Shown here piece by piece: positions 19,812 to 44,029 of a DNA stretch of 64,000 bases. The notes below the pieces were generated by a model, which saw only the letters and a program-made list of their open reading frames with translations, was not told the DNA's origin and ran no database searches. The position numbers and the translations under genes are program-made. Position 1 is the first letter of the stretch. Each line of letters starts with the position of its first letter. This stretch comes from Ruania albidiflava DSM 18029 (GTDB lineage: Bacteria > Actinomycetota > Actinomycetes > Actinomycetales > Beutenbergiaceae): positions 124,001 to 188,000 of the forward strand of contig NZ_ATWL01000002.1 in the NCBI RefSeq assembly GCF_000421225.1, read 5' to 3'.

Positions 19812-21212
19812 ATGACTGAGGACTACGACATCGATCTGGCCGTGATCGGCTCAGGAGGCGCGGCCATGTCGGCCGCCATCGCGGCCAGCCAGGCCGGTAA
19901 GAGCGTCGTGCTGATCGAGCGGGGTGTCCTGGGCGGCACATGCGTGAACATCGGCTGCGTGCCGTCCAAGACGCTCCTGGCGGCCGCTGGAGCCCGGCAC
20001 GCCGCGATCACCAACCCCTTCACCGGCGCCCCAACGGCAGCCGGGCGCGTGAACCTCGGCGATCTGGTGGCCCAGAAGGACGCCCTGATCGAGCGCCTGC
20101 GCGATGCGAAGTACGCCGACGTGGCCGCCGCCTACGGCTTCGAGGTCCGCCCGGGCCAGGCTACCTTCCTGGACAGGGACACCCTGGCCGTCGACGGCCA
20201 GTCGCTGCGGGCACGGGCCTATCTGGTCGCCACCGGCTCCACCCCCGCCGTCCCGGACGTGACCGGCCTTGGCTCCGTGGACTGGCTGACGTCCACCACC
20301 GCGATGCAGCTCACTGAGCTGCCCGAGTCCCTGGCCGTCATCGGTGGCGGGTACGTCGGGATGGAGCAGGCCCAGCTGTTCGCTCACCTCGGCGCCCGGG
20401 TGTCGGTGGTGGGGCGTCTGGCGCCCCACGCCGAGCCGGAGCTGGCCCAGGGTCTTCGAGAGATTTTTGCCGACGACGGCATCACCGTGGTGGAAGAGCA
20501 CGCGACGACGGTGGCTCGCGAGGCGGGCCCCGCAGGAGAGGTGGTGGTGACCACGGACTCGGGCGAGCAGGTGCGCGGCGCGCGGGTCCTGGTGGCCACC
20601 GGACGCCTGCCCCGTATCGACGGCCTGGACCTGGCTGCGGCCGGTGTGGACGTGGACGAGCGGGGCTTTATCGTGGTCGACGAGGCCCAGCGCACCTCCA
20701 ATCCCCGCATCTACGCCGCGGGTGACGTCTCTGGGGCTCCCCAGTACGTCTACGTCGCCGCCGCTGGCGGTCGGGCCGCCGCGCTCAACGCCCTGACCGA
20801 TGACGGAGTCCCGCAGGTAGCTCGGGTCGACTACGCCGGCTTGCCAGCGGTCGTCTTCACCCGGCCCCAGCTGGCCTCAGCGGGGCTGACCGAGGACGAG
20901 GCCCTCATCCGCGGGCACGCTTGCGACTGCCGCGTCCTGGACCTTTCCGACGTCCCCCGGGCGCTGGTCCAGCACGACACCCGCGGCGCGGTGAAGCTCG
21001 TCGCCGACGCCGAGAGCGGCGAGATCCTGGGCGTACACGCCCTGGCTGACGGCGCCGGAGAGATCATGCTGGCGGCCACCTACGCCATCAAAGCCGGCAT
21101 GACCGTCGATGATCTGGCCGATACCTGGGCGCCATATCTGACCATGGCCGAAAGCCTGCGCATCGCGGCCGGCCTCTTCCGCAACCAGATGCCAACGTCC
21201 TGCTGCGCTTGA
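19812..21212 (+). CDS. merA: Mercuric reductase
   Basis: A 466-residue flavoenzyme that reduces Hg(II) to volatile Hg(0) with NADPH in the cytoplasm. The FAD site is DLAVIGSGGAAMSAAIAA, the redox pair is Cys44 and Cys49 in GGTCVNIGCVPSK, and the NAD(P) site is SLAVIGGGYVGMEQAQ. The C-terminal vicinal pair Cys464-Cys465 (SCCA end), which delivers Hg to the active site, separates MerA from lipoamide dehydrogenase. The N-terminal HMA (NmerA) domain is absent, as in many actinobacterial forms. No merT, merP or merB is nearby, so Hg entry must rely on other routes. Confidence 0.96.
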   Translation: MTEDYDIDLAVIGSGGAAMSAAIAASQAGKSVVLIERGVLGGTCVNIGCVPSKTLLAAAGARHAAITNPFTGAPTAAGRVNLGDLVAQKDALIERLRDAKYADVAAAYGFEVRPGQATFLDRDTLAVDGQSLRARAYLVATGSTPAVPDVTGLGSVDWLTSTTAMQLTELPESLAVIGGGYVGMEQAQLFAHLGARVSVVGRLAPHAEPELAQGLREIFADDGITVVEEHATTVAREAGPAGEVVVTTDSGEQVRGARVLVATGRLPRIDGLDLAAAGVDVDERGFIVVDEAQRTSNPRIYAAGDVSGAPQYVYVAAAGGRAAALNALTDDGVPQVARVDYAGLPAVVFTRPQLASAGLTEDEALIRGHACDCRVLDLSDVPRALVQHDTRGAVKLVADAESGEILGVHALADGAGEIMLAATYAIKAGMTVDDLADTWAPYLTMAESLRIAAGLFRNQMPTSCCA

Positions 21213-21490: not shown

Positions 21491-22087
21491 TCAGAGACCA
21501 AACGCTCCGCCGCTGACGAGGATGAGGATGCCCAGGCCGATCAGGACGATGGGGAACAGGACGTGTTCCCAGCGTTCGAGGACTTCGGCGATCGGCGGGC
21601 GGGTGGCGACGAACTTGGCGAGTATGACTAGGACCGCGACGAGTGCGAGGAAGACGAGGCAGTAGGCGACCACTGCGATGGGTTCCACGTTGAGGAAGAC
21701 GGGGACGTAGACGCCGATGTTGTCTCCGCCGTTGGCGAAGGTGACTCCTGCGACGGTCCACGCGCTGACCTTCTTGCCTGCGATCTTGGCGTCATCGTCG
21801 TCATCGTCTCCGCGTAAGGCTTGCCATGCCGCCCAGAGGCCGAGGGTCAGGGGGATGAGCCCGAAGTACGGGATAGCTGCTGAGGGCAGGAATGCTCCGG
21901 CTCCGATAGTCACCAGCACAGCGGCACCGAGGATGCCGGCGAACCCCAGGTACTGGCCGACCAGGATGCGCGTGGTCGTCCCGCGTTGGCACGCGCCGCG
22001 GGCGAAAAACAGGGAGAGCACGATGATGTCGTCGATGTTGGTCACGATGAACAGGCCGATTGCCTGCAGGACGGAAGCCAGGATCAC
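21491..22087 (-). CDS. cadD: CadD-family cadmium resistance transporter
   Basis: A protein of about 198 residues with five to six hydrophobic segments of the CadD family (LysE superfamily-like). It begins VILASVLQAIGLFIVTNIDDIIVLSLFFARG; the conserved NIDDI motif and a second acidic motif FANGGDNIGVYVPVF are typical. A cytosolic acidic stretch DDDDDDAK links the two halves. It would export Cd2+. The GTG start at 22087 overlaps the cmtR stop by 4 bases, so the two are co-translated. Confidence 0.92.
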   Translation of the reverse strand: MILASVLQAIGLFIVTNIDDIIVLSLFFARGACQRGTTTRILVGQYLGFAGILGAAVLVTIGAGAFLPSAAIPYFGLIPLTLGLWAAWQALRGDDDDDDAKIAGKKVSAWTVAGVTFANGGDNIGVYVPVFLNVEPIAVVAYCLVFLALVAVLVILAKFVATRPPIAEVLERWEHVLFPIVLIGLGILILVSGGAFGL

Positions 22088-22443
22088 GCGACCACCTCTG
22101 CTGCGTCGCATCTGGGCACCGAGCAGGCCGGTTCAATGCACGGGGCGTTCTCGTCCAACGCGAGGGTGACGTCGACCAGGGCAGTCAGCGCCCGCGTCAG
22201 GTGCGGATCGGCGATCTCATAGCGCGTCTTGCGGCCCTCGGGCTCGGCGATCACGATCCCGCAGTCGCGCAGGCACGCCAGATGGTTGGACACGTTAGAG
22301 CGTGTCAGATCCAGATCGCGGGCCAGCTCTGCCGGGTAGGCCGGTCGGTCGAGCAGCGTCAGGATGATGCGGGACCTGGTCGGGTCGGCCAGCGCGCGGC
22401 CCAGCCGGTTCATGACGTTCAGGCGAGAAGCAATGGTCAGCAT
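22084..22443 (-). CDS. cmtR: ArsR-family Cd/Pb sensor CmtR
   Basis: A 119-residue ArsR/SmtB winged-helix repressor. It aligns with Mycobacterium tuberculosis CmtR through RLGRALADPTRSRI and LTRSNVSNHLACLRDCGIV. The three thiolate ligands known for CmtR, Cys57, Cys61 and Cys102, fall at exactly those positions here (ACLRDC and APCIEP). It would repress its own operon and release DNA on binding Cd(II) or Pb(II). It is the first gene of cmtR-cadD. Probably translated from a leaderless mRNA (see the -10 box). Confidence 0.95.
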   Translation of the reverse strand: MLTIASRLNVMNRLGRALADPTRSRIILTLLDRPAYPAELARDLDLTRSNVSNHLACLRDCGIVIAEPEGRKTRYEIADPHLTRALTALVDVTLALDENAPCIEPACSVPRCDAAEVVA

Positions 22444-27743: not shown

Positions 27744-28145
27744 TCATGCGATTGCCGCGAGGAGTTCATTACAGGCTTGTGCGCACGCCCGGCAGGCCTC
27801 GGCGCAAACGCTGCAATGCTCGTGGTGGCCGGCATGCTGCTCGCACTCGTCTCCGCAGGACTCGCACGCCTGGGCACAGGCCTGGAGTTGGGCATGGGTG
27901 AGGTTGGCGTCATAGCCGGTGTGGCGGGACAGAATGCGGGCGGTGGCAGCGTAGATGTCGGCGCAGTCAAGATTGGTGCGAATGCACTTGCGTAGCTCGG
28001 TCACGGTCTCTTCGCTCAGGCAGGCATCGGCGCAGCTGGTACACGCTTGGGCGCACGCCACGAGCATGTCGATCGTGCGGGCAAGCAGATCGCGGTCGAC
28101 GCTGATCTCGGCCGGGTAGGTGTTCATCATCTCGGTGGTCCTCAT
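27744..28145 (-). CDS. Four-helix bundle copper-binding protein (Csp/DUF326 type)
   Basis: A 133-residue protein rich in cysteines that line helices at i, i+3/i+4 spacing: VACAQACTSCADACLSEE, KCIRTNLDCADI, LQACAQACESCGDECEQH and CSVCAEACRACAQAC. This is the pattern of Csp copper-storage proteins, which fill a four-helix core with many Cu(I) ions. No signal peptide is seen, so it should be a cytosolic Csp3-like store. ATG 28145 has AAGGGAG upstream. It belongs to the copper block and has a CopR-like tandem repeat 108 bases upstream. Confidence 0.9.
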   Translation of the reverse strand: MRTTEMMNTYPAEISVDRDLLARTIDMLVACAQACTSCADACLSEETVTELRKCIRTNLDCADIYAATARILSRHTGYDANLTHAQLQACAQACESCGDECEQHAGHHEHCSVCAEACRACAQACNELLAAIA

Positions 28146-28252
28146 GACGTGCTCCCTTGCTTTTCCGGTGTGACGTCGACGCGAATTCGTGACGCCGCAG
28201 ATTTGTCCCTCCGACGCTACGGCGTCACGATGGAGAACACCCGGTGATGCGA

Positions 28253-28272
28253 TGAAGGTTCGATGAAGAACC
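28253..28272. promoter_or_regulatory. CopR-type tandem box 1 (upstream of csp)
   Basis: TGAAGGTTC (28253-28261), GA, TGAAGAACC (28264-28272): two 9-base direct repeats with an 11-base period. The same design recurs three more times in this copper block. It matches the form TGAAGATTT-N2-TGAAGATTT recalled for C. glutamicum CopR. The repeats read on the plus strand, opposite to csp transcription. Confidence 0.7.
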
Positions 28273-28435
28273 GTTGGTCGGACACGCCCACCGCCGACCA
28301 TTCCGGCGCTCAGCGGCCGAACTAACCGCCCATGAACATCGCGCGGTAGTCGTCAAAGGTCACGCCAGCGCGCTTGACCGGGACCCCGGCGGGCCTCCCA
28401 CCGACCAGATATCGGTAGGCCTGGCGTGCGTTACC

Positions 28436-29017
28436 TCAGGCGTCGAGCTGGAGAGTAGTCAGGCAGGTCGCCCCGTCCTCGCTGGTGGAGAAGTCGCGCT
28501 GGCCGGTGCGGCCGTCGTGGGTGACTTCAACGGTGCCCTCGATGTCGCGGGGAAGCCAGAAGCCGACGAAGCCGTTGTCGAAGGTGGTCACCTGCTCATC
28601 GACGAGGACCGCGCCACTGTCGTCGATGATGCGCACGCTGATATCCTCGTTGGCCAGCTCGCCACGGCAGGTGGTCAGGGAGTGGTAGTAGCACTCGTGG
28701 GTCTGATCGACGTATGGCGCGATTGAGAGGTAGAACTCGTTGTCTTCGAGCGGGAGCGCGACTTCCTGATCGGGGCCGGCGAGCATAAGTTGCTCTGCGC
28801 GCACGGAGGCCATGAGCTCGGTCGGGCGATCGGCCACAGGCATCCGGTCGAGGTGGCCGATGATCTGCTGCGCGTCCATGCCGTCGAGGTCATGCGCGGC
28901 CAGGAAGTCGGCCTGCGCGGTGGTGCTGGTCGTCGTCGGGCTCGCGTCGGGGGTGGTGGTGGAACAGCCTGCGAGCACCAAGGCCAAGGCAGCAACAAGG
29001 GTCAGGGATCGTTTCAT
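28436..29017 (-). CDS. cueP: CueP-family metal-binding lipoprotein
   Basis: A 193-residue secreted protein with lipobox ALVLAGC (lipid-modified Cys18) and a Thr/Ser linker. The CueP domain has FLAAHDLDGMDAQQIIGHLDRMP and the diagnostic YLSIAPYVDQTHECYYHSLTTCRGEL (two Cys, two His for metal). In Salmonella CueP is the main periplasmic copper protein and supplies Cu to SodCII; here it would be anchored outside the membrane. ATG 29017 follows GAGGTGT. A CopR-like box lies 47 bases upstream of its start. Residues before Met at 29017 in the open frame are not conserved. Confidence 0.9.
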   Translation of the reverse strand: MKRSLTLVAALALVLAGCSTTTPDASPTTTSTTAQADFLAAHDLDGMDAQQIIGHLDRMPVADRPTELMASVRAEQLMLAGPDQEVALPLEDNEFYLSIAPYVDQTHECYYHSLTTCRGELANEDISVRIIDDSGAVLVDEQVTTFDNGFVGFWLPRDIEGTVEVTHDGRTGQRDFSTSEDGATCLTTLQLDA

Positions 29018-29063
29018 ACACCTCATTCTGCTAGACGCTGGCAGCCCGAGTGTGGTCGAGCAC

Positions 29064-29083
29064 TGAAGATTCGATGAAGATCG
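29064..29083. promoter_or_regulatory. CopR-type tandem box 2 (between cueP and SHOCT-MCO operon)
   Basis: TGAAGATTC (29064-29072), GA, TGAAGATCG (29075-29083). This is the best-conserved copy in the window. It sits in the divergent intergenic region, 47 bases before cueP and about 190 bases before the SHOCT gene, so it could act on both operons. Confidence 0.75.
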
Positions 29084-29274
29084 ACCGGACGGCCGGGACC
29101 ACGCCGGACCCATCTGATTGACTCGATCGAAAGGCCCACCGCTCGCCTTCCGGTCAGCTGCGACGCCCAAGGAGGATCGATCCCTCCTCGCGCACCGCGG
29201 CTCAGAGGAGGCATCGTGCGGTGGACGGCCGGCCGTCGATCACGTTCCGGCACGGACACTCGCGGAGGTGAGAC

Positions 29275-29544
29275 ATGGGAAGGAACTGGGACCACATGGG
29301 TGGGTGGGGCATGGTCTGGGGCTGGTTCTTCCTGGCCCTGATGGTCGTGGGCCTCGTCGTGCTCGTCCTTGTCCTGGTCCGGCTGCTCAGCGGCCGCGGT
29401 CAGCGGCCCAACGGCGCGAGCCACCCGGGTCGTAGTCGGGCCCGGGAGGTGCTCGATGAGCGGTACGCCCGCGGGGAGATCGATGACACCGAGTACGACG
29501 AGCGTCGCCGGCGCCTGGACAACGGCGCAGGACCTGAGGCGTGA
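29275..29544 (+). CDS. SHOCT-domain small membrane protein
   Basis: An 89-residue protein with one membrane helix (about residues 17-40, FFLALMVVGLVVLVLVLVRL) after a Trp/Met/His-rich start (MGRNWDHMGGWGMVW). A C-terminal SHOCT motif (REVLDERYARGEIDDTEYDERRRRL) follows. SHOCT proteins of this type regularly stand next to copper oxidases; their role is unknown. The Met/His-rich N-terminus could bind Cu(I). GGAGGTGAGAC precedes ATG 29275. The TGATG overlap couples it to the oxidase. Confidence 0.85.
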   Translation: MGRNWDHMGGWGMVWGWFFLALMVVGLVVLVLVLVRLLSGRGQRPNGASHPGRSRAREVLDERYARGEIDDTEYDERRRRLDNGAGPEA

Positions 29545-31004
29545 TGCCCATCACCCGGCGTCAAGCGCTCCAGCTCGGAATGCTTGGCGGGCTCGGGGTC
29601 GTGGTCGGTGGGGTGGGGCTCTCGCAGACCGGCCTGCCCTGGCTCGCCCCGTCCACCAGTTCGGCTGGGGCCGGCGGCGAATCCCTGGTGGAACCGGAGG
29701 TCGTGCGCAGCCGGGACGGGGTGCTGCGGGTGGAACTGGTCGCCACCCGTCGGGAGACGACCATCGCTGGGCAGCGGGCACGGGTGCTGACCTACAACGG
29801 CACGGTGCCGGGTCAGACCTGGCGGGTACAGCCGGGAGACCGAATCGAGGTGCGGCTGCGTAACGAACTCGACACCCCGACCAACTTGCACACCCATGGG
29901 CTGGCCGTCTCCCCGCGGGATAACGGAGACAACCCGTTCGTGTCCATCGACCCTGGCCAGGTCTTCGACTACCGCTTTGATCTTCCCGAGGACCACCCGC
30001 CAGGGGTGTCCTGGTATCACCCCCACCGGCACGGCACGGTCGCCGATCAGTTGTTCGGCGGCTTGTACGGTGCCTTGATCGTCGAGGGCGATCGGGTGCC
30101 GGTCAGCCGGGAGCGGGTGCTGGTCGTCTCGGACATCTCGCTGACCGGCGACGGGCAGATCGTCCCCGTCGCCGCTCCGGAGGTGATGATGGGCCGAGAG
30201 GGAAACCTGGTTCTGGTCAACGGTCAACACCGGCCGCAATTATCTGCGCGTCCCGGGCAGCGAGAACGCTGGCGGGTGATCAATGCGTGCACCTCGCGGT
30301 ACCTGCGCTTGGCGCTGCCCGGACAGCACTTGGAGCTGCTCGGTATCGACACCGGCCGCGAATTAACGCCTCGGGAGGTGCAGGAGGTGCTGCTGGCGCC
30401 GGGCAATCGCGCCGATCTGCTGGTGAGCATGCGCGCCGGTTCCAGCGAGTTGCGCACACTCGGTTACGACCGCGGTGGGATGGGGATGATGGGCGGTGGT
30501 GGCCTGTCCGGGCCAGGCACCTTGGCGACGTTGGCTGTCACCGGCGCCGAGGCCGCCGCCCCGGGCCCGGTGCCGGACCGTCTGGCGGTTCCGGATCTGC
30601 GGGAGAAGTCCGTCGCCGGGCGGCGGGAGATCGCGTTCACCATGACCATGGGATCGATGATGGGTCCCGGCCGGGGGATGATGGATCCCGGGTTCGATGG
30701 CCGCGCCTTCGACGCCGACCGGATCGATCAGCGGGTGAGCATCGGCGGGGTGGAAGAGTGGCTGATCACCAACCCGACCCCGATGGACCATCCCTTCCAC
30801 CTGCACGTGTGGCCCATGCAGCTCGTCGAGACTGGCGGACAACCGGTCCGCGAGGTGACCAGGCGCGACGTCGTCAATGTGCCCGCCCGGGGCCGGGTGC
30901 GGGTCCTGGTCGACTTCGCGCGCCACCCGGGGCGCAGCGTCTACCACTGCCACATTCTCGATCACGAGGATGCCGGGATGATGGCCAGCGTCGAGGTCGG
31001 CTGA
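29544..31004 (+). CDS. Multicopper oxidase (CueO/laccase-like), Tat-exported
   Basis: The protein has 486 residues. The N-terminus MPITRRQALQLGMLGGLGVVVGG carries a twin-arginine signal, so the folded enzyme is exported with copper bound. All four copper-binding motifs are present: NLHTHG (about 115-119), WYHPHRHGT (158-165), HPFHLHVWPM, and YHCHILDHEDAGMM with the type 1 Cys, two His and axial Met. A Met/Gly-rich insert (RGGMGMMGGGG, TMGSMMGPGRGMMDPG) resembles the Met-rich Cu(I) loop of CueO. It would oxidise Cu(I) outside the membrane. ATG 29544 overlaps the SHOCT stop. Confidence 0.94.
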   Translation: MPITRRQALQLGMLGGLGVVVGGVGLSQTGLPWLAPSTSSAGAGGESLVEPEVVRSRDGVLRVELVATRRETTIAGQRARVLTYNGTVPGQTWRVQPGDRIEVRLRNELDTPTNLHTHGLAVSPRDNGDNPFVSIDPGQVFDYRFDLPEDHPPGVSWYHPHRHGTVADQLFGGLYGALIVEGDRVPVSRERVLVVSDISLTGDGQIVPVAAPEVMMGREGNLVLVNGQHRPQLSARPGQRERWRVINACTSRYLRLALPGQHLELLGIDTGRELTPREVQEVLLAPGNRADLLVSMRAGSSELRTLGYDRGGMGMMGGGGLSGPGTLATLAVTGAEAAAPGPVPDRLAVPDLREKSVAGRREIAFTMTMGSMMGPGRGMMDPGFDGRAFDADRIDQRVSIGGVEEWLITNPTPMDHPFHLHVWPMQLVETGGQPVREVTRRDVVNVPARGRVRVLVDFARHPGRSVYHCHILDHEDAGMMASVEVG

Positions 31005-31037
31005 CCGCGCCCAACCCCCGACGAGGAGGAGAACCCC

Positions 31038-31955
31038 TTGAGTCTCGACCACGCCTCAGGTGGGCACGTCCCGGCCCACGGAGATCGCCGCGCACTGCGG
31101 ATCTCCGGGGCATTGACCGGGGTGTATTTCGTCATCGAGTTGGTCGTGGGTCTGTGGTCCGGGTCGGTGGCCGTGCTCTCCGACGCGTTCCACACCTTCT
31201 CCGCTGTCGGTGGGGTCATGATCGCCCTGGTCGCCCAACGCCTCAGCCAGCGTCCGGCCACCGGCAGGGAGACCTTCGGATGGGGGCGCGCGGAGATCCT
31301 CGGAGCCCTGTTCAACGGGGTCTTCCTGGTCGTCATGGCCGGGTACGTCTTCTGGATGGGGGCGATGCGGCTGGCCGACCCGGTCGAGCTGCCCACTACG
31401 GTCATGCTCTGGGTCGCCGCCGGCGGCATCCTCACCGAAGTCATCGCTTTCTGGTTGCTCTACCAGCGGCAGAAGTCAAACCTCAACCTCAAGGGCGCGT
31501 TCTGGCACATTCTGCAGACCTTCGTCGGCAGCCTCATCATCATCGTGTCCGCGGTGGTGATCCGGCTGACCGAGTTTCTGGCGATCGACCCGCTGCTCGG
31601 TATGGCGTTCGGGCTGGTACTGCTGTGGGCATCGTGGACCATCCTGCGCTCGGCGATGCGTATCTTGCTCCAAGGCACCCCTGAGCATCTCGACGTGCGT
31701 GAGGCGACGGCACTGCTGCGGGGCATCGACGGAGTGGCCGACGTCCATCACATCCACGCATGGACCATCACCTCCGGACGCACCGTGTTCTCCGCCCATC
31801 TGCGCGTGTCCAGTCTGCCCGAGGCTGGCGACCGTGTCCTGCACCAGGCCACCGACCTGCTCCAGGATCGCTTCGGCGTGTACTTCTCCACCCTCCAGCT
31901 CGAACAGACCTGCCCGGACGAAGAGCGCGCCGCAGACATCGACATCACCAGATAG
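31038..31955 (+). CDS. Cation diffusion facilitator family transporter with altered metal site
   Basis: A 305-residue CDF/CzcD-like protein with six membrane segments and a C-terminal cytosolic domain (from about 215; GVADVHHIHAWTITSG). CDF landmarks ETFGWGRAEILGALFN and NLNLKGAFWHILQTFVGS are clear. The membrane metal site, normally HxxxD in TM2 and HxxxD in TM5, reads His52-xxx-Ala56 (SDAFHTFSAV) and His157-xxx-Thr161 here. Both aspartates are missing, so Zn2+ specificity is doubtful. TTG start at 31038 with GGAGGAG upstream, 33 bases after the oxidase; probably the same operon. Confidence 0.9.
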   Translation: MSLDHASGGHVPAHGDRRALRISGALTGVYFVIELVVGLWSGSVAVLSDAFHTFSAVGGVMIALVAQRLSQRPATGRETFGWGRAEILGALFNGVFLVVMAGYVFWMGAMRLADPVELPTTVMLWVAAGGILTEVIAFWLLYQRQKSNLNLKGAFWHILQTFVGSLIIIVSAVVIRLTEFLAIDPLLGMAFGLVLLWASWTILRSAMRILLQGTPEHLDVREATALLRGIDGVADVHHIHAWTITSGRTVFSAHLRVSSLPEAGDRVLHQATDLLQDRFGVYFSTLQLEQTCPDEERAADIDITR

Positions 31956-32113
31956 CCCACCACCACGCCTGGTCGGTGAGAGTGGTGTCGGTGTCGCGCG
32001 ACAACCACGGCGACATCGACTGAAAGCTCCCGCAAGACTCGGCCATCCCCGGCACCAAGAGTCCATCCCGCAACCTCACCGGGCCGGGAGGCGCCGTTTG
32101 GGAGAATAGATGC

Positions 32114-32818
32114 ATGATTACGGTGGATACCCTGCCGCGCGTGCTCGTCGTGGACGACGAGGCGCCCCTGGCAAGATTGGTGGCAAGCTACTTCGAACGG
32201 GACGGCTTCGACGTCGAGACCACGGGCAACGGTCGCGAGGCGATCACCATGACCCGAGAGCTGGACCCGGGCGTGATCGTCCTCGATCTGGGGCTGCCGG
32301 GCATTGACGGGGTCGAGGTTTGCCGCACGGTGCGTACCTTCTCCGACTGCTACATCGTCATGCTCACCGCGCGGGTGGAAGAGGTCGACAAACTCATCGG
32401 CCTGTCGGTGGGCGCCGACGACTACGTCACGAAACCGTTCAGCCCGCGCGAACTCCTCGCCCGGGTGCGGGCCATGTTACGTCGTCCGCGTTCGAGCCTA
32501 GGCCCAGAGATGCCGGTGCGCCGGTTCGGTGCCCTGACGGTGGACATCGCCGCCCGCGAGGTTCACCTGCACGCCGAGCCGGTGGAACTCACCCGAACCG
32601 AGTTCGACGTACTGGCCGCGCTGGCGGTCCGACCGCGGATGGTTTTTTCCCGGCGCCAGCTCATCGAAGCGGTCTGGGGCGAGGGCTGGGTTGGTGATGA
32701 GCATCTGGTCGACGTACACATCGGGCATCTGCGGCGCAAGCTCGGCGATGACCCCGCCAACCCGATCTTCATCAAGACGATGCGCGGGGTCGGCTACCGG
32801 ATGGGCAGCGGCGAATGA
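32114..32818 (+). CDS. copR: OmpR/PhoB-family response regulator, copper type
   Basis: A 234-residue regulator. The receiver domain has the acidic pair Asp14-Asp15, phospho-acceptor Asp58 (VIVLDLGLPGIDG) and Lys107 (YVTKPFSPREL). The C-terminal winged HTH ends VDVHIGHLRRKLGDDPANPIFIKTMRGVGYRMG. It is encoded with its kinase (ATGA overlap). Tandem 11-base-period repeats upstream of surrounding copper genes are the right form for an OmpR-type dimer. The symbol copR is by context and box similarity, not proven. ATG 32114 follows GGAGAA. Confidence 0.9.
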   Translation: MITVDTLPRVLVVDDEAPLARLVASYFERDGFDVETTGNGREAITMTRELDPGVIVLDLGLPGIDGVEVCRTVRTFSDCYIVMLTARVEEVDKLIGLSVGADDYVTKPFSPRELLARVRAMLRRPRSSLGPEMPVRRFGALTVDIAAREVHLHAEPVELTRTEFDVLAALAVRPRMVFSRRQLIEAVWGEGWVGDEHLVDVHIGHLRRKLGDDPANPIFIKTMRGVGYRMGSGE

Positions 32819-33936
32819 CCCGGCTGCCGGGGCTGGCTGCACGGCTGCTCGCGGCCACGGCGGTGGTCGTATTCGTGGGCTGGGCCACCGCGTGGGTGGT
32901 CGTGGCCGCTGTCGGACCGGCGATCTTCCACGACCACATGATCCAGGGCCGGGCAAGCGATTCGGGGGTGGTCCACCACGCCGAGGAGGCCTTCCAGTCC
33001 GCCTCGGCCCTCTCCCTGGCCGGGGCGTTGCTGGCCGCGCTGGTCGCCTCGGTCGTGGTGAGCCTGTTTCTGGCTCGACGGGTCAATAGCTCTCTGGTGG
33101 CAGCCACGGACGCCGCCCACCGGGTAGCCAACGGCGATCATTCGGCTCGCGTGCCCCGGGTGGGGCTGGGCCGGGAGTTCGACGAGCTGGCCGAGGCGTT
33201 CAACACCATGGCGACGGACCTGGCGGAGGTCGAGACGATTCGCATCCGGATGCTCGGTGACCTCGCCCACGAAATGCGCACCCCGCTAGCCACCCTCCAC
33301 GGCTACCTCGAAGCAATCCTGGACGGGGTGCACGACGCCGACGAGGAGACGATCACGCTCCTGCGCGATCAGGTCACCCGCTTGTCCCGGCTCGGGGAGG
33401 ACATCGCGCTGGTGACCACCGCCGAGGAGGGCGGCCTGACCATGCACCGCCGAGAAGTTGCTATCACCGACCTGTTCGCCACAGCGCAGGCCGAGGCACA
33501 AGCCCGCTACCGGGAGCGCGGCGTTCGGCTGGAACGAATGGTCTCGGCCGCAGCGGCACAAGCCTGGCTGGACGCCGATCCTGACCGGCTCGCGCAGGTG
33601 CTGACCAACCTGTTGGACAACGCCCTGCGGCACACGCCCGCCGGCGGGCGGGTGGACTTGAGCGCAGACCGGCAGGGGTCGACCGTCGTGCTCCGGGTGG
33701 CCGACGACGGGGCCGGGATTGATGCCAAGCACCTTCAGTATTTGTTCGACCGGTTCTACCGCGTCGACACGGCACGGGACCGCGCCCACGGCGGGTCCGG
33801 AATCGGGCTCGCCGTGGTCGGCGCCATCGTCCGCGCCCACGGTGGAAAGGTCACCGCCACAAGCCCGGGAGCCGGGCGAGGCGCCACGTTCACCGTGACC
33901 CTACCGGTGGCTGGCGCCGCCGTCGGCCCCGGGTGA
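32815..33936 (+). CDS. copS: Sensor histidine kinase, copper type
   Basis: A 373-residue membrane kinase. TM1 spans about 8-33, a short outer loop (about 34-62) contains FHDHMIQG and GVVHHAEEAF, and TM2 spans about 63-86. A HAMP region follows, then the H-box LGDLAHEMRTPLATLHGY with His152, the N-box LTNLLDNALRHTP, and G-boxes VADDGAGID and GGSGIGLAVV. The loop's His/Met cluster is a plausible Cu(I) site. Overlap with the regulator gene (ATGA) makes them a pair. The 3' end overlaps a convergent small gene by 47 bases. Confidence 0.9.
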   Translation: MTRLPGLAARLLAATAVVVFVGWATAWVVVAAVGPAIFHDHMIQGRASDSGVVHHAEEAFQSASALSLAGALLAALVASVVVSLFLARRVNSSLVAATDAAHRVANGDHSARVPRVGLGREFDELAEAFNTMATDLAEVETIRIRMLGDLAHEMRTPLATLHGYLEAILDGVHDADEETITLLRDQVTRLSRLGEDIALVTTAEEGGLTMHRREVAITDLFATAQAEAQARYRERGVRLERMVSAAAAQAWLDADPDRLAQVLTNLLDNALRHTPAGGRVDLSADRQGSTVVLRVADDGAGIDAKHLQYLFDRFYRVDTARDRAHGGSGIGLAVVGAIVRAHGGKVTATSPGAGRGATFTVTLPVAGAAVGPG

Positions 33937-34174
33937 GCGGGGAGCGGTCTGCCGTGGGCCGTTCGGCGGACGGTGCGGCATCGGTCCGCTGGGGGTGCTG
34001 ACCGTGCCTGCCGTGGTCCATGAACATCATGCCGATCATCATCAGCGGGCAGGCCAGCAGCGCGGCCAGCGGGAGCGCCTCACCGAGCGAGCGACCGGCG
34101 GCGAGGAGAGCCAGGACCGCCAGGACGGCGGTCCCCAGTATGATCAGCAGGTGCGAGCGGTGGTTGGTGTGCAT
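33890..34174 (-). CDS. Small membrane protein (DUF2933-like)
   Basis: On the minus strand ATG 34174, preceded by GAAGGAA, opens a 94-residue protein: MHTNHRSHLLIILGTAVLAV, a second hydrophobic stretch ALPLAALLACPLMMIGMMFM, then DHGRHGQHPQ and a basic tail. The pattern TM-TM-CPLMMIxMMxxMxxH is typical of small DUF2933-like membrane proteins found in copper operons; the Cys/Met/His cluster may bind Cu(I). Its 3' end overlaps the kinase gene and its 5' end overlaps another small frame. Confidence 0.65.
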   Translation of the reverse strand: MHTNHRSHLLIILGTAVLAVLALLAAGRSLGEALPLAALLACPLMMIGMMFMDHGRHGQHPQRTDAAPSAERPTADRSPLTRGRRRRQPPVGSR

Positions 34175-34292
34175 CGGTTCCTTCTCGTTGAGCGTCGGCG
34201 CGGGTGGGGAAGATCGTCGCCACGGCCCAGACGCCGAGAACGACATAAAACAGGACGACCACGGTGAGCGTCAGCCAGACGATCGGTGCCAT
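34080..34292 (-). CDS. Possible small membrane protein overlapping the DUF2933-like gene
   Basis: ATG 34292 has an excellent GGAGAGGAG site on the minus strand and opens MAPIVWLTLTVVVLFYVVLG, a single membrane helix. About 30 residues later the frame runs into the next gene's start and continues as Arg/Pro-rich sequence to 34080. The first 40 residues look real; the tail may be an overlap artefact or result from loss of an earlier stop. A CopR-like box lies 66 bases upstream. Confidence 0.45.
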   Translation of the reverse strand: MAPIVWLTLTVVVLFYVVLGVWAVATIFPTRADAQREGTDAHQPPLAPADHTGDRRPGGPGSPRRRSLAR

Positions 34293-34357
34293 GTCTGCTC
34301 CTCTCCTTCAAGGCTCCACCCTCGGGCACGCTCCTGGCGCCGCGGATAGACGAATGA

Positions 34358-34377
34358 CGAAGAATCGCTGAAGCCGC
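34358..34377. promoter_or_regulatory. CopR-type tandem box 3 (degenerate)
   Basis: CGAAGAATC (34358-34366), GC, TGAAGCCGC (34369-34377): two imperfect repeats with the same 11-base period as the other boxes. It is 66 bases upstream of the minus-strand small membrane genes. It is weaker than the other three copies. Confidence 0.5.
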
Positions 34378-34518
34378 CACCCGGTGGGGGGCTCGGTGGA
34401 GCCACCGAGGGTGTCGAGCATCCGGCGGGTTCAGCTGTAGACGCTGACCGAGGGGCAGCGGGCCGAGCAAGTCGCTGGAAATCTCGCGCCCCCGTGATGG
34501 CCGCCGGCGCGGTCCCGA

Positions 34519-34560
34519 TGAAGGTCCCGTCCGGCTTTGATGAAGAGGCGATGAAGATTG
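34519..34560. promoter_or_regulatory. CopR-type tandem box 4 with extra phased half-site
   Basis: TGAAGAGGC (34541-34549), GA, TGAAGATTG (34552-34560), plus a further TGAAGGTCC at 34519, exactly 22 bases (two periods) upstream of the first. It lies 82 bases before the DUF305 gene and reads in the same direction. Confidence 0.7.
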
Positions 34561-34641
34561 GCCGCCTGGCTGGATGCGCTCACGGCGTCCTTGCTTGACT
34601 CGGAGGGAACCATGCATCGCCGTCTCTAGGAGCAGCTCCCC

Positions 34642-35280
34642 GTGAAGATCACCTCTCGCCGCCTCGCCGCTGGTGGCAGCGCACTCGCCCTCGCCCTGAT
34701 CCTGGCCGCTTGCGGCACCCCGCAGGACCAGGCTGACCCGACCGGGACTGGCACCGTGACCCAGGAACCGACCGGGACGCAGACCAGCGGGCCGGCCGGC
34801 GAGGTCGATCAGACCCACAACGACGCCGACACGATGTTCGCGCAAATGATGATCGTCCACCACGAGGGTGCCATCGAGATGGCCGACCTGGCAGTGGAAC
34901 GTGCCGCGTCGGAGAAGGTCCGAACCGTGGCCGAGGGCATTTCCTCTGCCCAGGGGCCGGAGATCGAGCAGATGACCTCCTGGCTGCAGGCTTGGGGTGA
35001 AGACACCACACCGCCTGACGACATGGAGGGTCACGGCGGGATGGATATGGACGGGATGAGCCAAGAGGAAGCCATGGCCGAACTCGGAGGACTGTCGGGC
35101 ACCGAGTTCGACCAGCGATTTCTGGAGCTGATGATCGCCCACCATGAGGGCGCCGTGACCATGGCCGAGGACGAGCTCGCGGACGGGCAGAACCCGCAGG
35201 CGCGCGAACTCGCACAGATGATCATCGACGCCCAGCAGGCCGAGATCACCGAGATGGAGCAGCTCGGCCAGAACCTGTGA
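34642..35280 (+). CDS. DUF305 family lipoprotein
   Basis: A 212-residue exported protein with lipobox ILAAC (lipid-modified Cys24) and a Thr-rich linker. Two DUF305 half-repeats each carry an HHEGA motif: FAQMMIVHHEGAIEMADLAVERA and FLELMIAHHEGAVTMAEDEL. The ferritin-like helical fold with paired His is implicated in copper tolerance in other actinobacteria. A His/Met insert GHGGMDMDGM separates the halves. GTG 34642 follows AGGAGCAGC. Box 4 upstream ties it to the CopRS regulon. Confidence 0.9.
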   Translation: MKITSRRLAAGGSALALALILAACGTPQDQADPTGTGTVTQEPTGTQTSGPAGEVDQTHNDADTMFAQMMIVHHEGAIEMADLAVERAASEKVRTVAEGISSAQGPEIEQMTSWLQAWGEDTTPPDDMEGHGGMDMDGMSQEEAMAELGGLSGTEFDQRFLELMIAHHEGAVTMAEDELADGQNPQARELAQMIIDAQQAEITEMEQLGQNL

Positions 35281-36506: not shown

Positions 36507-37658
36507 TTAGTGATGCAGGCTGGGCATCTGCTCACGGAGGAGAGGGGCAGCGTCGATGCCCATGAGGGCAACTGGCGTGTCATCGAGGTAGTGGGCGACG
36601 AGCAAGGGTTTAGTGGACATCACCCGTGCGCGCGTGCCTAACGGAGGGTGGCCGGCACCAATGAGGGTGTGCCCGTGGATGCGCACGGAGAAAGTGGAGA
36701 CCGGCAGGTATGTGCGGGGATCAGCGGCCATGCCGAGATCGTGCAGCAGCGCCTGCGCGGCGTGCACTCCCTGTGCGGTGGAATCGTCCCAGTGGTCGAT
36801 CCGGTAAGCGCTGTGCCTGGGATAGTGGTGTACCGCCACGCCTCCAGCAGCGTAGATGCGCTGGTCCGGGGCATGCAGGGACCGTAGGTGACTGTCGACA
36901 GGTATGCCCTCGGGTCCGGTCCAGGGAGCCGGCGCGGTAGGTGCGGTGCCGTGAGCGACGATCGCGAGATCGCCTTCTACGCGAGTGCCGTCATCGAGGA
37001 CGACGGCGACGCGATCGGAGTGAGTGCGGATCGAACGCGCGCTTCGGCCGAGGTAGGCGGCGTGCTGGGGCTGATGCAGGTCGAGCAGCCACCGGGCGGC
37101 GGGTTCGCCGATCGAGCTGGCTCCTGGCACGAGTGAACGGGCGATCAGGGCGGTGTCGTGGCCCGCATCGGTGAGCAGTGACGCGGTCTCCGAAGCGACC
37201 AGGCCGCCACCGAGGATCAGCACCCGCGCCGGGGAGGCGTGGGCGAGGCGGTCACGTACACGGACGCCGTCGGCCATCGAATGCAGAGTGGTCAGGCGAC
37301 CTGCACGCACGGCCTCGTCGCGGCCGATGATCTCCTCATCAAGGATGCGAGGCCGGCTTCCGCTGGCGATGACGAGCGCGTCGAAGGCTCGCCTCTCGCC
37401 AGAGTCGAGACGAACCTCTCGGGTTCGCGGGTCGATGCTGCGCACGGTGTCGGCAGTGGGCTCGACCCCAACATCGGGAAGCGCTGCCTGGTGGGGTTCC
37501 AGTAGCCCGATGGCCACGCCCTTGTTGACCAGGGTCCGGTTGGAAGGCTGTTCGCCGGTTCGGGTGAACAGTTCGACGTCGACGCCCGAAGCGCGCAGGG
37601 CTTTCGTGGCGGCGGTTCCGGCCGCGCCGGCGCCGATGATTCCGACTGTCGAGGTCAT
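36507..37658 (-). CDS. NAD(P)/FAD-dependent oxidoreductase (ferredoxin-reductase-like)
   Basis: A 383-residue flavoprotein with an N-terminal FAD site (TVGIIGAGAAGTAATKAL, residues 3-20), LVIASGSRPRIL, a second dinucleotide site (RVLILGGGLVASETASLL) and the FAD-ribityl region RIYAAGGVAVHHYP. It looks like the small reductases that feed electrons to ferredoxins or Rieske proteins, but no such partner is nearby. ATG 37658 overlaps the TetR stop (TGATG), so both are one operon under TetR control. The substrate is unknown. Confidence 0.87.
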   Translation of the reverse strand: MTSTVGIIGAGAAGTAATKALRASGVDVELFTRTGEQPSNRTLVNKGVAIGLLEPHQAALPDVGVEPTADTVRSIDPRTREVRLDSGERRAFDALVIASGSRPRILDEEIIGRDEAVRAGRLTTLHSMADGVRVRDRLAHASPARVLILGGGLVASETASLLTDAGHDTALIARSLVPGASSIGEPAARWLLDLHQPQHAAYLGRSARSIRTHSDRVAVVLDDGTRVEGDLAIVAHGTAPTAPAPWTGPEGIPVDSHLRSLHAPDQRIYAAGGVAVHHYPRHSAYRIDHWDDSTAQGVHAAQALLHDLGMAADPRTYLPVSTFSVRIHGHTLIGAGHPPLGTRARVMSTKPLLVAHYLDDTPVALMGIDAAPLLREQMPSLHH

Positions 37659-40031: not shown

Positions 40032-40046
40032 TACCCCCTAGGGGTA
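40032..40046. promoter_or_regulatory. CsoR box upstream of the copZ-copA operon
   Basis: A near-perfect dyad TACCC-CCTAG-GGGTA, extended by A/T on both sides (40031-40047). It lies 42 bases before copZ. This is the standard GC-tract operator of CsoR, which releases DNA on binding Cu(I). The same TACCC-N5-GGGTA frame recurs at 44015-44029. Confidence 0.88.
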
Positions 40047-40298: not shown

Positions 40299-41312
40299 AT
40301 GAAGGCACCTGCACGGCTGGGCCTGTACGGGCTGGTCCTCGTGGCCGTGTTCGCCGTGGCTGGATTCACGGCGAACGCGGTCATCCCCGCGGTGACCGTG
40401 CAGAGCTGGGCAGAAGACACCGCACAGAACACCCACCACGACGAAGGAGACAGCATGGACACCGCCGGGCACGAGGGCGGCCACACAGGCGAGACGGCCC
40501 CCCTCGGCCTGGGGATCGCGCAGGACGGTTACCAGCTGACCGCCGTGACCGCCCCCACCGACACCAGCACCGAGGGAAGCCTGTCCCTGACCATCACCGG
40601 CCCGGACGGGAGCCCGGTGACCGACTTCGAGCTGGAGCACGAAAAGGAACTGCACCTGATTACCGTTCGCGCCGACGGTCAGCACTTTCGTCATGTCCAT
40701 CCCGAGATGAACGACGACGGCGCCTGGACGATCCCCTGGCAGTGGGAGGCGGCCGGGTCCTACCGGATCTTCGCGGACTTCCTTCCCGCGGACGCCGGTG
40801 AAGGGCTGACCTTGTCGACCTCGGTGCACGTGGGTGGCGACTACGAGCCGGCACCGGCCACCGAGCCGGTCACCACGGCCACCGTCGACGGCTTCGACGT
40901 CAGCGTGCAGGGCGATCTCACTGCGGGCGAGGCCACGCAGCTGACCATGACCATCACCCGTGCCGGGGAACCAGTCACCGAGCTGGAACCCTACCTGGGC
41001 GCCTTCGGACACCTCGTCGCGCTGCGGGACGGGGACCTCGCCTATCTGCACGTCCACCCCCATGGGGACGAGCCGCAGGCCGGCCAAACCTCTGGTCCGG
41101 AGATCGTGTTCGAGGCCACCGCGCCCACTGAGGGCCGCTACCTGCTCTACCTGGACTTCCAAGTTGACGGCGAGGTCCACACCGCTGCGCTGGTGATCGA
41201 TACGGCGACCGGCTCGGGCGGGAGCGACGGCGGGCACTCCGACGGTGGGGGTTCCGATCAGGAGCCGGGCACCGGTGACGAGCATCAGGAAGGAGAAGGC
41301 CATGACCGCTGA
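40299..41312 (+). CDS. Exported heavy-metal-binding protein with His-rich segments
   Basis: A 337-residue protein with a single N-terminal membrane/signal helix ([21 protein letters not shown]). A His/Asp-rich linker ([21 protein letters not shown]) and two beta-type domains follow, each with a His cluster: [19 protein letters not shown] and [19 protein letters not shown]. The tail is Gly/Ser/His-rich. Proteins of this kind occur in actinobacterial cop operons and probably bind Cu outside the membrane. ATG 40299 lies one base after the copZ stop; its end overlaps copA by 11 bases. Confidence 0.78.
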
Positions 41313-43626
41313 GAACACCAACACCGGGGTCGCCGGCATCGAATTGCAGATCGGTGGCATGACGTGCGCCTCGTGCGCGAACCGGATCGAGAAGAAGCTC
41401 AACAAGCTCGACGGTGTCACCGCGAGCGTGAACTACGCCACCGAGAAGGCCAGCGTCACCGGCCCCGACGACCTGGACCCGCAGGCCTTGATCGCGGAGG
41501 TCGAGAAAACCGGCTACACCGCCGCGCTTCCGGCACGTACCAAGGGCCACGGTGACAGTTCAGAGGATGAGGGCGAGTCGGCCGAGGACAGAGAGCTGCG
41601 TTCTCTGCGTCAGCGCCTCATCGGCGCCGCGGTCCTTGCGGTGCCGGTGATCGCGATGGCGATGATCCCAGCCTTGCAGTTCGACTACTGGGGCTTTGCC
41701 TCCCTCGTCCTCGCCGCCCCCGTCGTGGTCTGGGCCGGGTGGCCCTTCCACCGTGCCACGTGGATGAACCTCAAGCACGGTGCGGCCACGATGGACACGC
41801 TTATCTCTGTGGGCACGACCGCGGCGCTGATCTGGTCGATCGTGGCCCTGTTCTTCGGTACCGCCGGCCAGCCCGGCGTCACCCACTCCTTCGAGCTGGC
41901 CATCTCCCGCTCCGACGGGCTTGGGAACATCTACCTCGAAGTCGCCGCCGGGGTGATCACGTTCATCCTGATGGGCCGCTACTTCGAGAAGCGATCCAAG
42001 CGTCGCGCCGGGGCCGCTCTGCGCGCCCTGCTGGAACTGGGGGCAAAGGAAGTCTCGGTCCTGCGTGACGGCACCGAACAGCGTGTCTCCATCGACGAGC
42101 TGGCCGTCGGCGACGAGTTCGTCGTGCGACCTGGTGAGAAGATCGCCACCGACGGGACCATCACCTCCGGCAGCTCCGCGATCGACGCTTCCATGCTCAC
42201 CGGCGAATCCGTGCCGGTCGAAGTCTCAGAGGGCGACCCTGTCACAGGTGCGACCGTCAATGCCGGTGGCCGGCTCGTGGTGAAGGCGACCCGGGTGGGC
42301 TCGGATACCCAGCTGGCGCAGATGGCGAAGATGGTCGAGGACGCCCAGTCCGGCAAGGCTGAGATCCAGCGGCTGGCCGACCGTGTCTCCGGGGTGTTCG
42401 TGCCGATCGCGATCGCCATCGCCGTCGCGACCCTCGGGGCGTGGATCGGCGCAGGGTTCCCGCTGTCGGCCGGCTTCACCGCCGCCGTCGCCGTGCTGAT
42501 CATCGCCTGCCCCTGCGCTCTCGGCCTGGCCACGCCGACTGCCCTGCTGGTCGGCACCGGGCGCGGCGCGCAGATGGGCGTGCTCATCAAGGGCCCCGAA
42601 ACCCTCGAATCCACCCGCAAGGTCGACACGATCGTCCTCGACAAGACCGGCACCGTCACCACCGGGAAGATGACCCTGACCGACGTGATCGCCGCCGACG
42701 GGGTTGACCGTGACGAGCTGCTCAGGCTGGCCGGCGGTCTGGAGGACTACTCCGAGCACCCCATCGCCCAGGCCATCGCCACCGGAGCGACCACCGAGGT
42801 CGGTGACCTACCGGCACCGGAGTCCTTCGAGAACATCGAGGGTAAGGGTGTCCAAGGCGTTATCGACGGCCACGCGGTCCTGGCCGGCCGGGAGTCGCTG
42901 CTGGCGGACTGGTCGATCCACCTGGGCGACGACCTCCGGGTCGCGAAGCAGGCGGCGGAGGCCGAGGGTAAGACCGCGATTGCCATCGCCTGGGATGGTG
43001 CCGCACGCGGTGTGCTGGTCGTCTCCGACCAGATCAAGCCCACCAGCGCCCAAGCGATCGCACAGTTCAAGGAGCTCGGGCTGACCCCGGTGCTGCTGAC
43101 CGGCGATAACCAGGCCGTGGCTGAGCAGGTCGCCGCCGAGGTGGGCATCGATCAGGTGATTGCCGAAGTCATGCCCAAGGACAAGGTCGGTGTCGTCTCA
43201 AAGCTTCAGGACGAGGGCAAGGTCGTGGCCATGGTCGGCGACGGCGTCAACGACGCCCCCGCCCTCGCCCAGGCCGACCTCGGTCTGGCGATGGGCACCG
43301 GCACCGATGTGGCGATCGAGGCCGCCGACATCACCCTGGTCCGTGGCGACCTGCGCGCCGCCGCGGATGCGATCCGGCTGGCCCGGCGCACGCTACGGAC
43401 GATCAAGGCGAACCTGTTCTGGGCCTTCGCCTACAACACCGCCGCGATCCCACTGGCCGCCTTCGGGCTGCTCAACCCGATGCTCGCGGGGGCAGCGATG
43501 GCCCTCTCTTCGGTGTTCGTCGTGTCGAACAGCCTGAGGCTGCGGACCTTCAAGGCCCGCGCCGACGATGTCAGCGACCCGGCGCCTGCTGGCCCGGCGC
43601 AGGCCCGGGAGCCGGTGGCCGCCTGA
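41302..43626 (+). CDS. copA: Cu(I)-exporting P1B-1-type ATPase CopA
   Basis: A 774-residue ATPase. It has one N-terminal HMA domain with GGMTCASC (Cys22, Cys25), the membrane copper motif Cys403-Pro-Cys405 ([12 protein letters not shown]), phosphorylation site Asp447 (DKTGT), a conserved SEHP loop ([10 protein letters not shown]), and [20 protein letters not shown]. The CPC motif and single MxCxxC assign it to Cu(I) export. Met at 41302 is chosen because it starts a normal N-terminus and has AAGGAGAAGG upstream, overlapping the preceding gene. Confidence 0.96.
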
Positions 43627-44014: not shown

Positions 44015-44029
44015 TACCCGTACCGGGTA
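44015..44029. promoter_or_regulatory. CsoR box upstream of copB-csoR
   Basis: TACCC-GTACC-GGGTA at 44015-44029, the same 5-5-5 layout as the box before copZ. It sits 19 bases before copB, so it should make copB-csoR a second CsoR-controlled transcript with autoregulation of csoR. Confidence 0.8.

Follow-up and report, generated by a model that had tools for sequence, protein, structure and literature searches.

We analysed a window of 64,000 nucleotides from Ruania albidiflava DSM 18029 (contig NZ_ATWL01000002.1, positions 124,001 to 188,000), in which a copper island surrounds a copRS two-component gene pair. The island consists, in order, of csp and cueP on the minus strand; genes for a SHOCT protein, a multicopper oxidase (MCO) and a CDF-family exporter followed by copR and copS on the plus strand; a small membrane open reading frame (ORF) and a DUF2933 gene on the minus strand; and a DUF305 gene on the plus strand. 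The initial annotation had described four CopR-type tandem boxes here; its letters and coordinates were correct, and all four boxes and one additional half-site are intergenic. Read on the plus strand, box 1 (28253..28272, TGAAGGTTC-GA-TGAAGAACC) lies upstream of csp, with the gene on its 5' side; box 2 (29064..29083, TGAAGATTC-GA-TGAAGATCG) lies between cueP and the SHOCT-MCO genes; and box 4 (34541..34560, TGAAGAGGC-GA-TGAAGATTG) lies upstream of the DUF305 gene, with the gene on its 3' side. An in-phase half-site (TGAAGGTCC, 34519..34527) precedes box 4 by 22 bp, or two periods. These are three clear tandem boxes. Box 3 (34358..34377, CGAAGAATC-GC-TGAAGCCGC) is degenerate and a probable fourth.

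The clear boxes are rare. When the 4.17-Mb genome was scanned for the tandem pattern TGAAGNNNNGATGAAGA, matches without mismatch occurred only at 28253, 29064 and 34541. With a matrix built from 19 sites outside the window, boxes 2, 1 and 4 scored 35.5, 31.9 and 22.8, respectively; a score of at least 16 is expected 0.016 times per 64 kb, and one chance site in the window reached 16.2. A second matrix (12 sites) was applied to 1,000 dinucleotide shuffles of the five intergenic regions of the island (1,343 bp), and no shuffle reached 24.8 or 29.2, or the score of box 4. Box 2 was also the sole window match, at up to 3 mismatches, to the Corynebacterium glutamicum CopR box (mean of 100 shuffles, 0.00), and it has, with 3 mismatches, the 9-2-9 form TGAAGATTT-N2-TGAAGATTT of C. 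glutamicum-type CopRS systems. The C. glutamicum box is given as TGAAGATTTgaTGAAGATTT, with binding shown by electrophoretic mobility shift assay (PMC3140484); the initial annotation had it right.

Similar boxes recur beside copper genes in other genomes. Scanning 396 genomes of the order for TGAAGNTTNNATGAAGATN gave matches in 12 genomes, including the window's own, with 12 places outside the window; the reversed pattern gave none. All 12 places were inspected, and 11 adjoin homologues of the window's copper genes. The motif lies beside copRS in loci L127, L132, L133, L137 and L138 (with cueP on the other side in all of these except L137), beside SHOCT and copRS in L130, beside csp in L128, where copRS is 3.5 kb away, and beside DUF305 in L134 to L136. 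Its neighbours in L131 are genes for copper ATPases and for a small protein with, by eye, a heavy-metal-binding look. The twelfth place (L129, box 8001) adjoins a DUF2202 protein, and the copRS pair of that genome is on another contig (L130), so the box may act away from its regulator's locus. The DUF2202 protein is itself a possible copper-regulated protein.

Regulator homologues (E ≤ 1e-75) occur in 84 of the 396 genomes, and the best 80 of the 104 non-window matches were examined. At a score of at least 16, with overlapping boxes counted apart, 138 boxes were found in 68 of these 80 loci, five of which (L192, L205, L206, L208 and L250) overlap loci used to train the matrix; the reversed matrix found none. 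Fifteen named plasmid loci (six from Rhodococcus, three from Mycolicibacterium, two from Kocuria and one each from Gordonia, Cellulomonas, Cryobacterium and Streptomyces) held 30 boxes, again with none for the reversed matrix, and a box lay upstream of copR in 10 of the 14 that contain copR. This pattern supports the regulon that had been proposed, with CopR-type boxes grouped about copRS.

The boxes could instead belong to another OmpR-family regulator, such as an MtrA- or BaeR-like one, with CopRS merely nearby. A repeat period of about one helical turn is common to the binding sites of many OmpR-type regulators. The best general-model scores of the window's regulator are to MtrA and CreB, and it missed the model for heavy-metal CopR/CusR regulators (TIGR01387; score, 154.3; cut-off, 279.2). 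However, the boxes track homologues of the window's CopR across genera and plasmids, and they match the box to which C. glutamicum CopR was shown to bind (PMC3140484). In addition, among 80 other named loci, a box scoring at least 14 lay within 400 bp upstream of the regulator in 3 of 5 at 55% identity or more, and in only 1 of 75 below that value. We consider ownership by another regulator improbable. One distant case is recorded separately: in L085, an Agathobacter metagenome-assembled genome, TTAAGATTTGATGAAGATTT lies 95 bp upstream of a 42%-identical regulator and may be either an AT-rich chance match or a distant relative.

The genes adjoining the 138 boxes were grouped into approximate clusters from a simple ORF choice based on third-position GC content (GC3), in which some small clusters look like wrong-frame ORFs; for initially unknown clusters, one member of each was scanned to name it. 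Among the 195 flanking ORFs, the clusters were regulator (48), DUF305 (25), SHOCT (18), MCO (13), copper ATPase (10), a small protein weakly glutaredoxin-like and below the Pfam cut-off (10), prolipoprotein diacylglyceryl transferase (8), DUF6803 (6), thioredoxin-like (AhpC/TSA) lipoprotein (4), Csp (3), CDF (3), CueP (2) and smaller or unnamed groups. Boxes accompany csp in L208, L211, L215 and L252 and in the Cellulomonas plasmid locus L259, at 99 to 122 bp in L208, L211 and L215 and at 117 bp in L259. Together with the boxes here, those of relatives support placing both csp and DUF305 in the predicted regulon. The prolipoprotein diacylglyceryl transferase gene (PF01790) follows boxes in five loci (8 boxes; for example, L179 and L215) and also in L267, which fits the presence of lipoproteins among the targets; in L264 the gene is present with no adjoining box.

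The boxes also stand at fixed distances from promoter elements. Flanks were aligned on the box and searched for xAnnnT, and the best window of each of 300 base shuffles was taken for comparison. The element lay at +45 to +47 in 27 of 47 non-redundant flanks on the copR side and at +33 to +35 in 24 of 31 flanks of other targets on the 5' side, and no shuffle reached either count. In a cross-test, a -10 matrix trained on one side was applied to the other, placing 18 of the 31 5'-side elements in +33 to +36 (1.6 expected) and 25 of the 47 copR-side elements in +44 to +47, with 6 more in +22 to +25 (2.4 expected per four offsets). At copR boxes, the hexamer lay 6 or 7 nucleotides before an in-frame start in 42 of 43 non-redundant cases (29 and 13), a count that is no test in itself because several start codons were allowed. 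Gaps of 5 and 8 were also allowed and never chosen; the signal for a leaderless copR is the restriction to gaps of 6 and 7, plus the ladder of distances. After removal of four second boxes of the same promoter, 38 box to -10 distances fell at 23-24, 35, 39, 43-48, 56-57 and 68. The 13 distances outside 43-48 are in phase with 45.5 at a period of 11, and none of 20,000 random draws was as good. These data show that the boxes lie at fixed distances, phased by about 11 bp, from a degenerate -10 element, with one main spacing per orientation, which is new. In L267, L269 and L270 (around 5852-5882), three consecutive half-sites occur, the first pair fitting the copR spacing and the second the SHOCT spacing, perhaps giving each of the divergent promoters a separate pair.

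Candidate elements can be placed at several island genes. For csp, a -10-like TAGCGT (28214..28219, minus strand), picked by eye, lies at +34 from box 1. Its counterparts, TAGCGT or TAGCCT, lie at +45 to +46 in L208, L211 and L215 (by eye) and at +46 in L259, so the window element is one turn nearer than in four relatives. For cueP, CAGAAT (29025..29030, minus strand) lies at +34 from box 2 and 7 nucleotides before the ATG, an arrangement of the leaderless type; its score of 9.7 is the best of the flank. A GAGGGT lies at +35 on the gene side of box 3, toward the small membrane ORF, and a weak AACCAT (34608..34613, plus strand; score, only 0.6) lies at +48 from box 4. A scan of the island with the sigma-70 consensus found no promoter (0.5 expected).

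As the initial annotation noted, box orientation differs between targets, and this led it to suggest activation at some sites and repression at others. A stricter version would have CopR repress through one orientation and activate through the other. We found no support for either. Wherever a -10 element can be placed, boxes of both orientations precede it, by at least 22 bp in the copR set, and C. glutamicum CopR is described as activating both divergent promoters from one site (PMC3140484). Orientation-dependent repression is thus very improbable.

The promoter of copR itself differs from the others. A -10-like GAGAAT (32102..32107, plus strand) lies 6 nucleotides before the copR ATG, so that the window's copR looks leaderless, and the upstream 300 bp contain no box (best score, 8.3). 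A candidate at 32021, with that score, was rejected, as it lies 62 bp from the -10 element and off the ladder. The copR box is also absent from the six closest relatives, L179 to L184 (75 to 77% identity, four genomes), and from L188; it is present in the next relatives, L185 to L187 (71 to 73% identity). The copRS pair is therefore probably not autoregulated, a point that the initial annotation had missed.

CopR (32114..32818, plus strand; PF00072, PF00486) is an OmpR-family response regulator. Its recognition helix (GDEHLVDVHIGHLRRKL) equals that of the C. glutamicum-type-box loci L127 and L138 (GDERIVDVHIGNLRRKL) at 14 of 17 residues; box-bearing homologues have similar helices, and those of three more distant regulators differ. 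CopS (32815..33936, plus strand; PF00672, PF00512, PF02518) is a sensor kinase with two membrane helices, judged by eye, and a short loop of about 30 residues that, in the loop alignment, contains H39, H41 and H55. Across 89 aligned, partly redundant rows the loop motif is GPxxFHxH[ML]...H[AIV]ExA[FY], with P35 and F38 conserved in 89 of 89, H41 and H55 in 85 each, E57 in 70 and H39 in 66. In L204, L206 and L227, CopS homologues have Met-rich loops (such as RRMMG) in place of the histidine motif and the boxes are retained; these loops perhaps reflect a different metal or oxidation state.

Our preferred reading is that the boxes serve as operators for CopR, the product of the gene at 32114, which would be activated by copper through CopS, and as a whole we give it a probability of about 0.84. 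We infer binding, activation, copper as the signal and the leaderless starts from sequence. In this mechanism, copper outside the membrane would be sensed by CopS through its very short three-histidine loop, and CopS would phosphorylate CopR. A CopR dimer would then bind each tandem repeat head to tail and activate promoters with a weak -10 element, often without a T at the first position. Box orientation would not matter to the dimer, as long as the box stands at one of a set of distances that step by about one helical turn. Csp (the cytosolic store), secreted CueP and the lipoprotein encoded by the DUF305 gene would then become more abundant. Control by CopRS is very probable for these three genes and only possible for the pair of small membrane genes, whose products may rise as well. 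The copRS genes would be expressed from a leaderless, box-free promoter, and because that promoter has no box, the loop would be open and not self-amplifying. The four-box regulon thus stands in corrected form, with a Csp of the cytosolic kind and copRS probably outside autoregulation.

Several observations weigh against this reading. In the organism's own genome, TGAAGNNNNGATGAAGA has 1 further match with one mismatch and 31 with two (the reversed control has 6 places at up to 2 mismatches), and the one of these 32 weaker places that was inspected, near 25234, lies inside the relaxase gene. The class-level scan matched 5 of 394 genomes including the window's own, a set partly the same as that of the order, and its reversed pattern matched once in the 394. 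Of the four genomes that it added, G658 and G533 have copper genes at the box and G469 and G412 do not; a second match in G658 lies where its contig ends, and the 9 kb examined there contain no homologue. At the threshold, boxes are missing from 12 of the 80 regulator loci, the plasmid loci L260, L261, L262 and L271 have none near copR, and some boxes adjoin genes without an evident copper link. When the whole locus is considered, boxes scoring at least 20 are present not just in 3 of the 5 close regulator loci but in 6 of the 75 distant ones. Targets other than copR on the 3' side, only three in number, gave no spacing signal. The support for the spacing from the plasmid loci, where xAnnnT was found at the expected offsets in 26 of 39 box-gene cases (background, 0.10), comes from cases that are non-independent (related plasmids, overlapping boxes and shared flanks); L261 and L262, with no box, and L273, with no gene table, contribute no case. 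Within the window, the -10 matrix favours CATCGT at +21 for csp. On the 3' side of box 2, no promoter element stands at the usual spacing, which makes it doubtful that this box controls SHOCT-MCO. Distance alone is no bar to CopR acting on the SHOCT-MCO-CDF-copRS genes, since the site through which it acts on cg3286 in C. glutamicum lies at -266 to -285 (PMC3140484). The DUF305 side of box 4, finally, has no good -10 element at the expected spacing.

This last point bears on whether only box 2, and perhaps box 1, is functional, with boxes 3 and 4 being decaying or chance copies and DUF305 controlled otherwise. The first half of box 4 departs from the pattern, and no -10 element lies at +45 to +47 from it, only the weak one at +48; box 3 scores below two chance sites of the window outside the island (25234 and 1355). 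Against decay of box 4 stand its score, which no intergenic shuffle reached, its extra in-phase half-site and the position of the box on the same side of DUF305 in L183, L184 and L188, relatives that have the gene on the 3' side at 134 to 153 bp. We regard decay as unlikely. Box 3, with a score of 13.8 (second matrix) that 19 of the 1,000 intergenic shuffles reach, is weak by itself. A reading of it as chance, drawn from the window-wide rate, was dropped after the intergenic-only shuffle and the finding of GAGGGT at +35, the spacing seen in relatives, and on these grounds it is a probable true site.

If CopRS does control these boxes, a CopR regulon whose promoter rule is readable would be conserved in many actinobacteria and on their plasmids. 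Copper-induced genes would then be predictable from sequence: csp, DUF305, cueP and SHOCT-MCO, and also lgt, DUF6803 and thioredoxin-like genes. Because the sensor-loop histidines are conserved, how CopS detects copper becomes directly testable by point changes. A cytosolic store tied to a sensor of outside copper would be a pre-emptive response, with the store built before copper enters. At about even odds, we extend this to a general grammar of actinobacterial CopR promoters, in which one tandem box, in either orientation, would stand on an 11-bp ladder ahead of a -10 element whose first base is weak (box centre at about -45, -56, -67 or -78 if the hexamer is taken as -12 to -7) and copR would be leaderless. 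Islands like that of the window, without a copR box, would then be open loops in which the cytosolic store is wired to a sensor of outside copper.

The island was described initially as an envelope copper regulon, which does not fit its Csp. This four-helix copper storage protein (27744..28148, minus strand; 134 residues; PF03860) has no signal peptide, as judged by eye. Its best solved match is the cytosolic copper storage protein 6q6b (E 1e-50, aligned from residue 5), and all nine solved matches are named cytosolic stores or Csp3. It scored 35.1 with the model of the exported store Csp1 (TIGR04401; cut-off, 100). By homology and the lack of a signal peptide it belongs with the Csp3/Ccsp cytosolic stores, and because Csp is of this kind the regulon is not purely one of the envelope. 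CueP (28436..29017, minus strand; 193 residues; ATG at 29017) is a predicted secreted copper-binding protein (PF21172, E 2e-60; NF038094, above cut-off). The SHOCT small membrane protein (29275..29544; PF09851), the multicopper oxidase (29541..31004; PF07731, PF07732) and the CDF-family metal exporter (31038..31955; PF01545, TIGR01297) follow on the plus strand. On the minus strand, the small membrane ORF (34080..34292; 70 residues) is the first after box 3, and its end overlaps the gene of the DUF2933 small membrane protein (33890..34174; PF11666); profile scans gave no family match for this ORF, which has a weak homologue in L182. The CopM-like DUF305 protein (34642..35280, plus strand; PF03713, E 3e-51) has a lipoprotein signal by eye and scored 115.4 with the CopM model NF049983 (cut-off, 90).

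The island looks accessory, since a regulator homologue was found in none of the seven other genomes of the genus sampled. A MobF relaxase-helicase gene (TrwC, PF08751; 23306-26899) adjoins it; considered alongside the absence of any close copR homologue from those seven genomes, this suggests that the island moves. Beside the relaxase lie genes for a pyridine nucleotide-disulphide oxidoreductase, perhaps a mercuric reductase (19812-21212), and a cadmium-resistance transporter (21491-22111); the Cellulomonas plasmid locus L259 carries merA, a Cad transporter, csp, DUF305 and cueP together. A flavoprotein ORF at 36507-37658 is 90% identical in L188, compared with only 69 to 74% for copRS, cueP and DUF305 there, and these unequal identities point to a shared block of mixed ages. 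Farther on, two perfect CsoR-operator-like palindromes (40032-40046 and 44015-44029) flank a copper P-type ATPase gene (41245-43626), at which no CopR box was found; the ATPase is perhaps a separate cytosolic copper arm. Dual control is possible in L131 and L038, where a CopR-like box in the vicinity of copper ATPase genes has CsoR-like palindromes close by.

A literature search, which covered subscription journals incompletely and is no proof of absence, turned up the C. glutamicum work and a review on it but nothing on a CopR regulon spread more widely among actinobacteria, on CopR control of csp or on the spacing rule. The Gram-negative CusR/CzcR/SilR/CopR regulators (TIGR01387) share the copper two-component logic and the OmpR family with the window's system, but its CopR scores far below their cut-off, and their box sequence differs from that of the window. 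The window's Csp resembles Csp3/Ccsp of Streptomyces and others, known from solved structures, in sequence and in lacking a signal peptide (by eye). The Streptomyces coelicolor store SCO3281 is itself in the CsoR regulon, whereas in the window a CopR box accompanies csp and a search at up to 2 mismatches found no CsoR-like palindrome nearby. The neighbour of that store gene, SCO3280, is listed as putatively CsoR-repressed (PMC6414726). As described for Synechocystis CopMRS, a DUF305 protein (CopM) is under copper two-component control, on the window side by prediction. However, copM is reported within the copRS operon (PMC4335983), whereas the window's DUF305 gene is its own transcription unit, and the likeness drawn here is that of the DUF305 protein and its two-component control.

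The closest likeness is to CopRS (CopSR) of C. glutamicum, encoded by cg3284-cg3285 (Schelder et al. 2011, PMC3140484). Both systems have a 9-2-9 tandem box, an OmpR-type regulator, a sensor loop of about 31 residues with three histidines and a multicopper oxidase among the targets, though doubtfully so in the window, and L127, L132, L133 and L138 share the C. glutamicum layout. The position of cueP in these look-alike loci suggests that cg3286 is probably CueP. The histidines reported for C. glutamicum CopS are H39, H41 and H56 (PMC3140484, PMC3353115), and the CopS loops of L127, L133 and L138 are nearly identical to the loop printed in the 2012 review, which describes how CopS detects copper as unsolved (PMC3353115). 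For C. glutamicum the report describes a single genomic site with copR among the targets (PMC3140484), whereas the window has three to four sites and a copR promoter that lacks the box and, probably, autoregulation. Unlike in C. glutamicum, the window's boxes also stand at the genes of a cytosolic copper store and a DUF305 lipoprotein.

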